From Pectobacterium peruviense (GTDB lineage: Bacteria > Pseudomonadota > Gammaproteobacteria > Enterobacterales > Enterobacteriaceae): a DNA stretch of 64,000 bases. The notes under the pieces are model-generated. The model was not told the origin of the DNA. It saw nothing but the letters and a program-made list of their open reading frames with translations, and made no database searches. Each line of letters begins with the position of its first letter. The stretch's first letter is position 1. The position numbers and the translations under genes are program-made. The stretch is taken from positions 1 to 64,000 of the forward strand of contig NZ_LXFV01000020.1 of the NCBI RefSeq assembly GCF_002847345.1, given 5' to 3'. Below, piece by piece: positions 45,637 through 49,916 of the stretch.

Positions 45637-46788
45637 TTAGTCTGCCTGCTTACGCAGAAACGCCGGGATATCCAGATAGTCTGGCTCTTTATTCGTCTGC
45701 GGATTCTGGTCGTTAACCACTTTAGCAGCCGGTTTTTCCTGCGCCAGCGGCGTCATACCGTGTTGCTGATAACGATGATCCATCACAGGTTGGCTGGCCT
45801 GCTTGTTCGTTACCAGAGTAATCTCAGGACGTTTGTCCATGCCAATACCCGTCGCAACAACCGTTACACGCAGTTCATCATTCATTTCCGGATCAAGCGA
45901 CGTACCGATTACTACGGTCGCATTGTCGGACGCGAATGCACGAATGGTGTTACCTACTGTCTCGAACTCATCCAGACGCAGGTCAAAGCCTGCCGTGATG
46001 TTGACCAACACGCCACGTGCGCCGGACAGATCGATATCTTCCAACAGTGGGCTGGAGATCGCCATTTCTGCTGCTTCTTCTGCACGGTCTTCACCACGCG
46101 CAACACCGGAACCCATCATGGCATAACCCATTTCGGACATCACGGTACGCACGTCTGCAAAGTCGACGTTCATCAGGCCAGGACGCGTGATCAGCTCGGC
46201 AATACCCTGCACCGCACCTTTCAGTACATCATTTGCCGCACCAAATGCATCCAGCAGGGAAATACCGCGCCCCAGCACTTTCAGCAGCTTGTCGTTTGGA
46301 ATCGTGATCAGCGAGTCGACGTGCTTAGACAGTTCGGCGATACCCTGCTCCGCAAACGCCATACGCTTTTTGCCTTCAAAGTTGAAAGGCTTGGTCACCA
46401 CAGCAACGGTCAGAATGCCCAGGTCTTTTGCTACTTCGGCCACAACCGGTGCAGCACCTGTGCCCGTACCGCCGCCCATACCAGCAGCGATAAACACCAT
46501 GTCTGCACCTTCTAGTGCTGCACGCAGTGCTTCGCGATCTTCTTCAGCCGAATTACGGCCAACTTCCGGGTTAGCGCCTGCGCCCAGACCTTTAGTGATG
46601 CCACTACCGATCTGAATCGTCTGGCCAACAGCCGTTTTACGTAATGCCTGCGCATCCGTGTTGACCGCAAAGAATTCGACGCCTTCGATGCGCTCGCGCA
46701 CCATGTGTTCGACGGCGTTACCGCCGCCGCCGCCGACGCCGATGACTTTAATCACCGCGTCGTTGGTTAATTCCATTGGTTCAAACAT
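45637..46788 (-). CDS. ftsZ: Cell division GTPase FtsZ
   Basis: Tubulin-like GTPase forming the Z ring. 383 residues, as in E. coli. GTP-binding [11 protein letters not shown] near residues 19-29, the tubulin signature [18 protein letters not shown] at 106-123, the T7 catalytic loop with [11 protein letters not shown], and the conserved C-terminal tail [14 protein letters not shown] that binds FtsA, ZipA and ZapD. 68 bases downstream of ftsA; further promoters probably lie inside ftsQ and ftsA. Confidence 0.99.
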
Positions 46789-46856
46789 AATTTCTCTCCG
46801 TTTGTGCCTGTAACTGCGAGATCATAAAACTGTGCCAGGTGATCTCTTTGATAAAA

Positions 46857-48113
46857 TTAAAATTCTTTCCTCAACCAGCTGTTGATTCTCTTGAACCAGT
46901 TGCTCACTGAGGCACGTTTTTCGACTTCATGCTCACCACCTAGGTGAGATTCTTTTCCGTAATGGAGCAACCCAACCGCTGTTGAGTAATAAGGCTCTTG
47001 GGCATAATCCGTCAGCCCTGTTATGTTCATTGGTTGTCCAATACGCACCTGTGTGTGGAACACACGCTGCGCACAGGCCGCCAGACCGTCTATTTGCGCG
47101 GCACCGCCCGTCAGCACAATCCCTGCCGCCAGATGGTGTTTCACGCCTTGTTGACGCAACTGCTCCTGCAACTGTAAAAGTTCATCGTTCACCAGATTCA
47201 ACAGCTCGGTGTAACGTGGTTCAATCACTTCCGCTAATGTCTGTCTTTGCAGACTGCGGGGTGGACGTCCCCCAACGCTTGGGACCTCCACATTCTCATC
47301 TTTGCCGACGATCGCACCTAATGCACAACCGTGGCGTACCTTGATCGCTTCGGCATCCGTCGGCGGCGTACCGAACGCATAGGCAATATCGCTGGTAACC
47401 ACATTGCCTGCATACGGAATCACTTTAGTGTGTCGCAATGCACCGCCGGTATAGACCGCGATATCCATTGTACCGCCACCGATATCAACAACGCACACGC
47501 CCAGCTCACGTTCGTCTTCTGTCAGCACCGCATAGCTGGAAGCCAATCCCGCAAAAATCAGCTGGTCGACCTTTAAACCACAGCGTTCAACGGCTTTAAC
47601 AATATTCTTCGCCATATCGTTATGGCAGGTTATCAGGTGGACTTTCGCCTGCATACGCACGCCGGATAAGCCAACTGGGTTTTTAATCCCTTCCTGATAA
47701 TCGATCGCATATTCCTGTGGAATCACATGGAGAACACGGTGTTCATCGCGCACACGCACAGACTTAGCGGTATGCACCACGCTTTCCACGTCATCCTGCG
47801 TGACCTCTTCTTCTGAAATAGGCACCATCCCTATTTCATTCTGGCAACTGATATGTTTTCCCGACAGCGCCAGATACACGGAGGAGATCTGGCAGTCTGC
47901 CATCAACTCAGCCTGATCAATAGCGCGCTGAACACATTTAACGACCGACTCCAGATCGTTTACGCCGCCTTTATCCATACCGCGTGACGGGCAACTGCCT
48001 ACGCCAATAATATTGACCATGCCATCGGGCAGAACTTCCCCTACCAGCGCAGCCACTTTTGCTGTACCGATTTCCAGCCCAACTACCAGTTTTCTGTCCG
48101 TCGACTTGATCAT
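46857..48113 (-). CDS. ftsA: Cell division protein FtsA
   Basis: Actin-like ATPase that tethers FtsZ to the membrane and recruits later division proteins. 418 residues (E. coli 420). Actin-family phosphate motifs GLEIGTAKV and VVDIGGGTMDIAV, and the C-terminal amphipathic membrane helix VSNWFKRINSWLRKEF. Its ATG at 48113 forms an ATGA with the TGA that would close the extended ftsQ frame, but because ftsQ now stops earlier there are 53 bases between the two genes. Confidence 0.98.
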   Translation of the reverse strand: MIKSTDRKLVVGLEIGTAKVAALVGEVLPDGMVNIIGVGSCPSRGMDKGGVNDLESVVKCVQRAIDQAELMADCQISSVYLALSGKHISCQNEIGMVPISEEEVTQDDVESVVHTAKSVRVRDEHRVLHVIPQEYAIDYQEGIKNPVGLSGVRMQAKVHLITCHNDMAKNIVKAVERCGLKVDQLIFAGLASSYAVLTEDERELGVCVVDIGGGTMDIAVYTGGALRHTKVIPYAGNVVTSDIAYAFGTPPTDAEAIKVRHGCALGAIVGKDENVEVPSVGGRPPRSLQRQTLAEVIEPRYTELLNLVNDELLQLQEQLRQQGVKHHLAAGIVLTGGAAQIDGLAACAQRVFHTQVRIGQPMNITGLTDYAQEPYYSTAVGLLHYGKESHLGGEHEVEKRASVSNWFKRINSWLRKEF

Positions 48114-48166
48114 TGTTGTTTAGCCTGTGCCTGTTTCTGGTTACTGTTCTGTTGCTGATCAATGTC
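48110..48166 (-). pseudogene. Orphaned 3' tail of ftsQ beyond an in-frame stop
   Basis: Immediately after the ftsQ TAA the same frame reads DIDQQQNSNQKQAQAKQQ and then TGA, with the TGA overlapping the ftsA ATG. The end (NQKQAQAKQQ) resembles the E. coli FtsQ end (NQAQAEQQ), so this is what used to be the end of the coding region. If the TAA is real, these 18 codons are untranslated except by read-through. Confidence 0.75.
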
Positions 48167-48210
48167 TTATTGCTGACCAACTCGTTGCCGATCAACATTT
48201 TGTTGATCAA
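48151..48210. repeat. Degenerate 15-18 bp tandem repeats at the ftsQ 3' end
   Basis: Four diverged copies of a GTTGCTGATCAAC-like unit (plus strand) start at 48151, 48169, 48184 and about 48199. On the coding strand they give [14 protein letters not shown], then the stop, then DIDQQQ. They suggest local slippage or duplication that lengthened the FtsQ tail. Confidence 0.65.
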
Positions 48211-48994
48211 GCAAGGCTGGAGCCCAGCCTATCGCGGCTCCGCTGTCGTACCGCAAATCCACATGGCTGAGACGTTTGTTTTCGCTCTGAGCCTGCCGCT
48301 GCAACAACGGATATAGCTCGATAAAGCGTTGCAGACGTTTGGCCCTATCGTCCCGCCCCAATTCAAGGCGAGTATCATCATCTAATCCTAGCTGCCACGA
48401 ATGTCGTGCACTCATCGCAACCATTTTTAACGTAAACTTCCCAGCAGCCAGCGTCTGACTCATTGTGCGATAACCTTCCAGCACTTCGGCTTCACTGCCT
48501 TCCGGGCCATACAGCAACGGCATCTTGCGGTTGCCGATACGTTCAGCGGGTACACTGAACGAATTTCCTTCCGCATCAACCATTAGCTGATCATTCCAAC
48601 GCGCAACCGGAACATATTCAACCAGATGAATCTTTAATTCGTCCGGCCACTGCTTACGCACGCTAGCCTGTTTTATCCACGACAGACGCTCGATCTGCTG
48701 CTGGATCACGTTCACATCCTGTGTCATGAACGTTCCCGGCGAGCCCAACGACAAAATTGCCTGACGGATATCGTCGTTGGTGGTGTACTGCCTTTCCCCT
48801 GTTACTGCCATGCGGGAGAGCGGCAAGCGGCTGGCGTCTTTCATCCACCCGACCACCATCCAGCTACCCCAGACGATCGTCCCTATCACCATCAGCAGGA
48901 AAATTACTCCTGCTAATTGGCCTCCATTACTGCGACGTGTTCCTTTCGTCGGTTCTGGCTCTCGTCCGCGTGTATTCAGCGCTGCCTGCGACAT
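48167..48994 (-). CDS. ftsQ: Cell division protein FtsQ
   Basis: Bitopic divisome protein linking early and late division proteins and binding FtsB-FtsL. 275 residues (E. coli 276): cytoplasmic N terminus, membrane segment (about 28-50), POTRA domain ([21 protein letters not shown]) and beta domain ending [12 protein letters not shown]. The core is complete. After GWAP the tail is not E. coli-like: a pentapeptide-type repeat ([14 protein letters not shown]) runs into a TAA, behind which the original-looking tail continues in frame. The essential region for FtsB binding lies before this point, so the protein is probably functional. Confidence 0.95.
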
Positions 48995-48995
48995 A

Positions 48996-49916
48996 TCAGC
49001 CAGCGAGCTCCAGAATTTTCACGACCAGTTGCGAGAAAGTCAGCCCGCGTTGACGCGCGGCCATAGGAACCAGACTGTGGCTCGTCATACCCGGAGAGGT
49101 ATTCACCTCAAGCAGATAAAAAGCGCCGTCGCTATCCAGCATGAAATCGACGCGTCCCCACCCACTGCAATCCACCGCACGATAAGCCGCCATAGCCAGT
49201 ACTGCTAACGCCTGCTCTTGCTCATCCGACAAACCGCTCGGACAGAAATACTGCGTATCATCTGATAAATACTTCGCTTCATAATCGTAAAACGTACCCG
49301 CAGGCTGAATACGAATAGAAGGCAATACTTCGTCACCCAGGATCGCAACCGTGTACTCTGGGCCGCTCAGCCATTTTTCGACCAGAACATCGTCATCGTG
49401 ACGAAATGCTTCTTCGAGGGCAGCTGGTAGCTCACTGAGCGCGTTCACTTTGCTCATTCCAACGCTGGAACCTTCACGGCTTGGCTTGACGATCAGTGGC
49501 AACCCGAGGTGGGTGAACTGCGCCAATAATGCACTCGCCGCCGTTTCTGAATACTGGCGACGATCCAGCGCCACATACGGCGACACGGGCAACCCCACCG
49601 CTTGCCATACCTGTTTGGTCCGGCGTTTATCCATCGTCAGTGCAGATGCCATGACGCCGCTACCGGTATAAGGCAGCCCCAGGAACTCCAGGACCCCCTG
49701 TAATGTACCATCCTCGCCACCACGACCATGCAAGGCGATGAAAACGTTAGTAAAACCTTCTTCCTTCAACGTCGTCACAGGGAAGTCACGCGTATCAACC
49801 GCATGCGCGTTGATGCCAGCTTCTTTCAGGCCAGCCAAAACCGCCTGACCGGAAAGCAACGACACTTCACGTTCGGCAGAGGTTCCACCAAGCAATACAG
49901 CAACTTTCTCAGTCAT
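48996..49916 (-). CDS. ddlB: D-alanine--D-alanine ligase DdlB
   Basis: ATP-grasp enzyme making D-Ala-D-Ala for MurF. 306 residues (E. coli 306) from the ATG at 49916, with GAGGAAC upstream. N-terminal [29 protein letters not shown], the ATP-grasp core [11 protein letters not shown] and the C-terminal [15 protein letters not shown] are all present. It lies eight bases after murC and one base before ftsQ. Confidence 0.98.

Follow-up and report, generated by a model that had tools for sequence, protein, structure and literature searches.

An early stop codon in the FtsQ tail of Pectobacterium removes the overlap with ftsA, and the DNA behind it is conserved as nucleotides

At a stop-to-start distance of 38 nt, termination–reinitiation is reported to be cut by 80–90% in two gene pairs of Escherichia coli and to be abolished in a third (PMC10666635). 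In the same organism, in which the cell division genes ftsQ and ftsA are joined by an ATGA overlap, 575 copies of FtsA are reported per 147 copies of FtsQ in minimal medium, and 984 per 336 in rich medium (PMC4428075; the same copy numbers, from the same source, are repeated in PMC4462998). As three to four FtsA are thus made per FtsQ, most initiation at ftsA must be independent of termination at ftsQ; if one termination leads to at most one reinitiation, reinitiation supplies at most about 26–34% of the E. coli FtsA. With respect to the FtsQ protein itself, residues 257–276 are reported to be dispensable in E. coli (PMC6134095, citing Goehring 2007), and residues 262–276 are not ordered in a crystal (PMC6305486). 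Among the literature matches listed, none has a title or abstract opening that concerns ftsQ–ftsA coupling or an early stop in ftsQ, and we found no direct test of this coupling in the literature.

The DNA analyzed here is a stretch of 64,000 nucleotides from Pectobacterium peruviense (the window), in which both genes are readily assigned (Table 1). The ftsQ product scores 512.5 bits (cut-off 366) with PRK10775.1, the NCBIfam equivalog for the cell division protein FtsQ, and contains the Pfam domains POTRA_1 (PF08478, residues 58–127) and FtsQ_DivIB_C (PF03799, residues 131–248), both above the cut-off, while the ftsA product matches the Pfam families FtsA and SHS2_FTSA as well as the equivalog PRK09472.1 (900.7 bits, cut-off 409). 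A preliminary description of this DNA had reported that ftsQ is closed early by an in-frame TAA, beyond which the frame stays open for 18 codons up to a TGA that overlaps the ftsA ATG as ATGA; these positions, and the peptide given for the tail, proved to be exact. The distance from the TAA to the ftsA ATG is 53 nt.

Table 1. Features of the ftsQ–ftsA junction in the window (positions are those of the whole stretch)
Feature	Positions	Strand	Remarks
ftsQ coding sequence	48167–48994	minus	275 aa; stop TAA 48167–48169 counted in
Early TAA stop of ftsQ	48167–48169	minus	aligned codon is Gln in the genus genomes that do not stop here, and Gln or Lys in seven outgroup loci
Fast-evolving Gln-rich stretch directly before the ftsQ TAA	48170–48199	minus	10 residues
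Old FtsQ tail past the TAA	48110–48166	minus	18 codons, DIDQQQNSNQKQAQAKQQ (48113–48166), and ancestral TGA 48110–48112; nucleotide-conserved
Shine–Dalgarno-like AGG	48124–48126	minus	−13 to −11 of the ftsA ATG
Nucleotide-constrained block	48082–48137	minus	spans about −24 to +31 relative to the ftsA start, with the wobble positions of ftsQ and ftsA
ftsA coding sequence	46857–48113	minus	418 aa; ATG 48111–48113

FtsQ is therefore shorter by the 18 residues that the preliminary description had estimated, since the frame runs 18 codons past the TAA. The shortened protein has 275 residues, as compared to 276 in E. coli, and retains both Pfam domains. Its GWAP motif lies at residues 256–259 (in E. 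coli, the tryptophan of GWAP is W256) and the stop follows 16 residues past this motif, so that the region matching the E. coli residues up to 256 is intact. Judged by the E. coli reports cited above, the lost residues all lie outside the part of FtsQ that is reported as needed. Jointly with the explanation of the junction proposed below, we consider it likely that the product is a normal 275-residue FtsQ, and that the tail it has lost was dispensable and disordered.

The distribution of the early stop was determined in 25 Pectobacterium genomes, including our own, all of which contain the locus; nine of the 25 loci are identical to named Pectobacterium records across about 1.1 kb. FtsQ is closed early within the tail in 21 of these genomes, 18 of which use the TAA codon of the window while three (L015, L016, and L024) stop one codon earlier and have a glutamine codon at the position of our TAA. 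The remaining four (L005, L021, L025, and L026) have no early stop and carry glutamine codons at both positions. The surroundings of the stop vary as well: CAC replaces the preceding glutamine codon in four of the 18 genomes that stop at our codon, the region just before the stop is longer by 6, 18, or 21 nt in some Pectobacterium species, and a second in-frame stop follows the TAA in two of the 25 genomes (L018 and L019).

In Samsonia, Brenneria, Dickeya, and Lonsdalea, the FtsQ tail is intact, and the frame beyond the TAA is its homologue; together with the recurrence of the early stop in the genus, this makes the arrangement more than a chance occurrence. As the outgroups (Samsonia, Brenneria, and Dickeya) carry the tail without an early stop, we take the open tail to be the older state; in the seven outgroup loci that were read, the codon at the TAA position encodes glutamine or lysine. 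This bears out the earlier proposal that a stop appeared within the ancestral tail, which was rich in Gln and formerly extended to the ATGA. That description had also allowed for the opposite outcome, namely that all relatives might share this TAA and lack a conserved frame downstream; most genomes of the genus do stop there, but the frame behind the stop is conserved as DNA. At the genus level, the TAA is thus a polymorphic shortening of FtsQ and the common state among the genomes examined.

On a tree of the locus, built without the tail from the 25 genus genomes and seven outgroups, the presence or absence of the stop requires at least four changes, and six are required if the trait is scored in three states (no early stop, stop at our codon, stop one codon earlier), although loci of the same genus do not count as independent and interspecies recombination raises such counts on a single tree. 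A linked synonymous marker, CAG at a nearby glutamine codon, is present in all four of the open genomes and in none of the other 21. That the four stop-free genomes have this marker in common fits an exchange of short tracts between species, which explains the pattern of stops at least as well as repeated mutation does.

To compare the DNA behind the stop with the rest of the gene pair, changes were counted on the tree of the 25 genus genomes, excluding the start of ftsQ and the variable codons just before the stop, which align only with gaps. By this count, there are 2.41 synonymous and 0.097 non-synonymous changes per site in the body of ftsQ, and 0.39 synonymous and 0.151 non-synonymous changes per site in the post-stop tail, a synonymous rate about sixfold below that of the body. 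In absolute numbers, the 18 post-stop codons have undergone three synonymous changes versus 18.5 expected from the rate of the ftsQ body (Poisson P 1.2e-5) and seven non-synonymous ones, two of which are stops. This combination of a low synonymous and a raised non-synonymous rate indicates that the tail is kept as nucleotides, without constraint at the level of the protein. Across the stop-to-start boundary, codons 1–11 of ftsA show one synonymous change (16.4 expected) and no non-synonymous change, while the remainder of ftsA has 2.13 synonymous changes per site.

The center of this constraint lies over the ftsA start, where the lowest synonymous rate (0.08) of all 649 windows of 18 codons in the ftsQ–ftsA pair is found; the lowest window lying wholly within the ftsQ body or the remaining part of ftsA has a rate of 0.30. 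The exact window of the 18 tail codons (0.39) ranks 33rd of the 649, behind the start-centered windows and at least one window within ftsA (codons 12–29). Only codons 6, 12, and 13 of the 18 are variable, and some constraint thus extends further up the tail.

A wider set of 82 non-redundant loci from outside the genus, i.e., 85 loci minus three with a broken tail (L044, L051, and L092), shows the same block. Loci whose FtsQ stop precedes the ATG by one or two codons were retained in this set; for the ftsQ profile, 17 of the 82 were left out (eight in which the frame is closed beside the ATG and nine without the start motif). Between −24 and +31 of ftsA, a single base occurs in at least 95% of the 82 loci at 49 of 56 positions, wobble positions included, the exceptions being −24, −22, −9, −8, −3, −2, and +9; from +32 onward, wobble variation is back. 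Among the loci with altered tails, L044, which is titled Serratia marcescens, has a frameshift in the FtsQ tail and a junction like that of Candidatus Symbiopectobacterium (compare L112), and its species label looks doubtful. FtsQ early stops or replaced tails also occur in a Symbiopectobacterium, in Yersinia similis, and in two further genomes of the family (L051, L092, L182, and L183).

The conservation of the ftsA start was compared with that of other genes by scoring, for 60 loci of the family and ten genes, the probability of finding the same codon (ftsW, whose start aligned in 17 of the 60 loci, was left out; starts were aligned in 43 of 60 loci for murG, 54 for murC, 52 for ddlB, and 53 for murD). 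Codons 2–10 of ftsA have the highest same-codon probability of the ten genes (0.851), followed by those of ftsZ (0.728), and in the 24 nt upstream of the start, ftsZ (0.809) exceeds ftsA (0.762). Given these ftsZ values, the ftsA start stands at the far end of a range and is not unique. Two observations were made at ftsZ itself. In this gene, which starts at 46788 and runs downwards, codons 11–20 have a same-codon probability of 0.855 in the 60 loci, a strong synonymous constraint, and positions 46780–46877 of the minus strand, spanning the ftsA–ftsZ intergenic region, match the Rfam family PssrA (RF02797) with 45.7 bits (E 3.6e-6), below the gathering score of 69. PssrA is a plasmid-encoded small RNA of Shigella, and this RNA family may have sequence in common with the ftsZ leader.

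We took a conserved Shine–Dalgarno-like motif at suitable spacing as the mark of a ribosome binding site belonging to ftsA itself, and such a motif was found. An AGG begins at −13 in 55 of the 60 family loci and at −12 in three more, is present in the window, and is kept even where FtsQ ends 25–44 nt upstream with an unrelated tail. A pattern of the junction, allowing up to three mismatches, occurs in 159 of 295 genomes of the family and never twice in a genome; many of the 136 genomes without it are reduced, but not all of them (e.g., G027, G051, and G084). When a 101-nt query covering the junction was compared with 5426 genomes of E. coli, 5374 gave a match, 5362 of them with at least 99% identity, a threshold that allows one base change and with which rare early stops remain compatible; 52 have no match.

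We consider it likely that the early stop represents the loss of a dispensable FtsQ tail together with the ATGA overlap, and that the DNA past the stop has been retained because it serves ftsA as a translation initiation region. This region would be made up of the AGG some 10 nt ahead of the ATG, a leader rich in C and A, and roughly the first ten codons, and would be held at the nucleotide level whether or not ribosomes translating ftsQ cross it. The constrained block would act by loading ribosomes, so that ftsA would be translated by ribosomes loading on its own start region, and the ATGA coupling would probably have been lost at little cost. The Gln-rich tail of FtsQ may in part be nothing other than the CA-rich ftsA leader read in the ftsQ frame; when the stop moved upstream, this leader would still have been needed, and hence would still be conserved. 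One feature counts, we think, against a simple initiation region: a near-invariant constraint reaching to +31 exceeds the usual need of a ribosome site.

As a peculiarity of one strain the early stop would be unimportant, because it is the common state among the genus genomes examined. The natural sequences suggest that the Gln-rich end of FtsQ is conserved less for its amino acids than for its DNA or RNA, in which the ftsA start lies, and that the tight stop–start overlap of ftsQ and ftsA is dispensable. The early-stop junction also offers a simple test of how far FtsA synthesis depends on coupling to FtsQ.

The preliminary description had further proposed that ftsA is uncoupled and that the ratio of FtsQ to FtsA is thereby changed. 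We required, for termination–reinitiation, a stop that overlaps the next start or lies within about 20 nt of it; the short stop–start distance is indeed gone, and the 53 nt found here exceed this range. Judged from the E. coli distances, termination–reinitiation between ftsQ and ftsA has likely been lost in the stop-bearing Pectobacterium, and the resulting change in the FtsQ:FtsA ratio is probably small. A stronger form of the proposal, in which uncoupling shifts the ratio measurably and the effect on division has perhaps been selected, is compatible with the loss of a dispensable tail, but we think it rather improbable. It can draw on the 53-nt gap, given that 38 nt cost three E. coli pairs 80–100% of reinitiation (PMC10666635), and on the stop being present in 21 of 25 genomes, which shows that it does no great harm and might be favored. 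However, the three- to fourfold excess of FtsA over FtsQ in E. coli caps the share of reinitiation at about one-third, and four of the 25 Pectobacterium genomes are stop-free and yet have an identical ftsA start sequence. Moreover, in a survey of 59 other readable family loci (L141, with masked bases, was not counted), the 4-nt ATGA overlap is kept in 40 and absent in 19, of which two overlap by 1 nt, six have gaps of 2–6 nt, and 11 have gaps of at least 25 nt.

Somewhat less probable still, in our estimation, is that the block is a sequence-specific cis-regulatory site, i.e., the target of a small RNA or of an RNA- or DNA-binding protein, that goes beyond ribosome loading. The near-invariance of 49 of the 56 positions and the recurrence of the junction pattern in 159 family genomes are what such a site would lead one to expect, but the constraint is relaxed in distant genera of the family, and in a sample of 274 genomes of the class, taken almost wholly from outside the family, the pattern occurs only once, in our own genome. 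An Rfam scan of positions 46600–49200 gave two matches, both below the gathering score and neither over the junction. Folding argues against the site as well, in that the predicted structure of the window is weak (z −1.76, a value equaled by seven of 200 shuffles) and single-sequence folds of the 60 family loci disagree with one another; a role for RNA structure was accordingly set aside. Within the same fold, the TAA is placed in the loop of a predicted hairpin of nine pairs, an imperfect inverted repeat at 48154–48181. A scan for sigma-70 promoters (47900–48500) yielded a single 9/12 match, with 0.4 expected by chance, and this match does not lie on the strand of the genes but on the other one. 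It is equally doubtful that a near-invariant element of about 55 nt sets the dosage of FtsA through a specific partner, with the Gln-rich FtsQ tail of the Enterobacterales largely a by-product; were this the case, Pectobacterium would constitute a natural experiment separating the element, which is kept, from the tail, which is no longer translated.

Two readings that invoke a further protein have very little to recommend them. Read-through of the TAA, which the preliminary description had suggested could produce both forms of FtsQ, would yield a minor long FtsQ by way of the 18 open codons that lead up to the ancestral TGA, but constraint on the protein was not seen after the stop (seven non-synonymous and three synonymous changes in 18 codons of 25 genomes, a non-synonymous rate above that of the ftsQ body), and L018 and L019 carry a second in-frame stop; the suggestion is thus not supported. 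Nor, in all probability, are the wobble positions of both genes held in place by a small gene that overlaps them in the third frame, as a peptide in that frame would do. An open reading frame of 79 codons beginning with TTG (47971–48210) does span the junction, but in the 60 family loci neither the upstream stop nor the first start codon of that frame has a fixed place; of the downstream stops, the one at +140 is the most frequent, with 22 loci, and others lie as early as +5 (four loci) or +17 (two loci); as no start codon is common to the 60 loci, this candidate was rejected. An extension of the ftsQ frame past the TGA was also considered: its next stop lies at +28 in 53 of the 60 loci, but the conservation of the DNA already entails this, and it adds no independent evidence. 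That the TAA is a sequencing or assembly error, an objection the preliminary description had itself raised, is refuted to near certainty by the relatives, 18 of the 25 genus genomes having a TAA at this same codon.

The junction in the window thus resembles that of E. coli and of most family loci examined in gene order, in the ftsA start region (AGG, CA-rich leader, and ATGATCAAG), and in the frame of the Gln-rich tail. Unlike these ATGA junctions, however, Pectobacterium FtsQ stops 18 codons earlier, and the stop–start overlap is absent. In having lost the ATGA while keeping the AGG and the start, it is similar to the other lineages of the family that have the FtsQ stop ahead of the ftsA ATG; but while the old tail is mostly unrecognizable in lineages with a large gap (with the exception of L140, whose tail is frameshifted), that of Pectobacterium is nearly intact as DNA. 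Finally, the ancestral junction, with its −4 nt overlap, is of the type described as typical of termination–reinitiation pairs by Huber and colleagues (PMC10666635, PMC6728339), whereas the 53 nt that now separate stop and start exceed the 38 nt at which reinitiation is reported to be mostly or wholly lost (PMC10666635).
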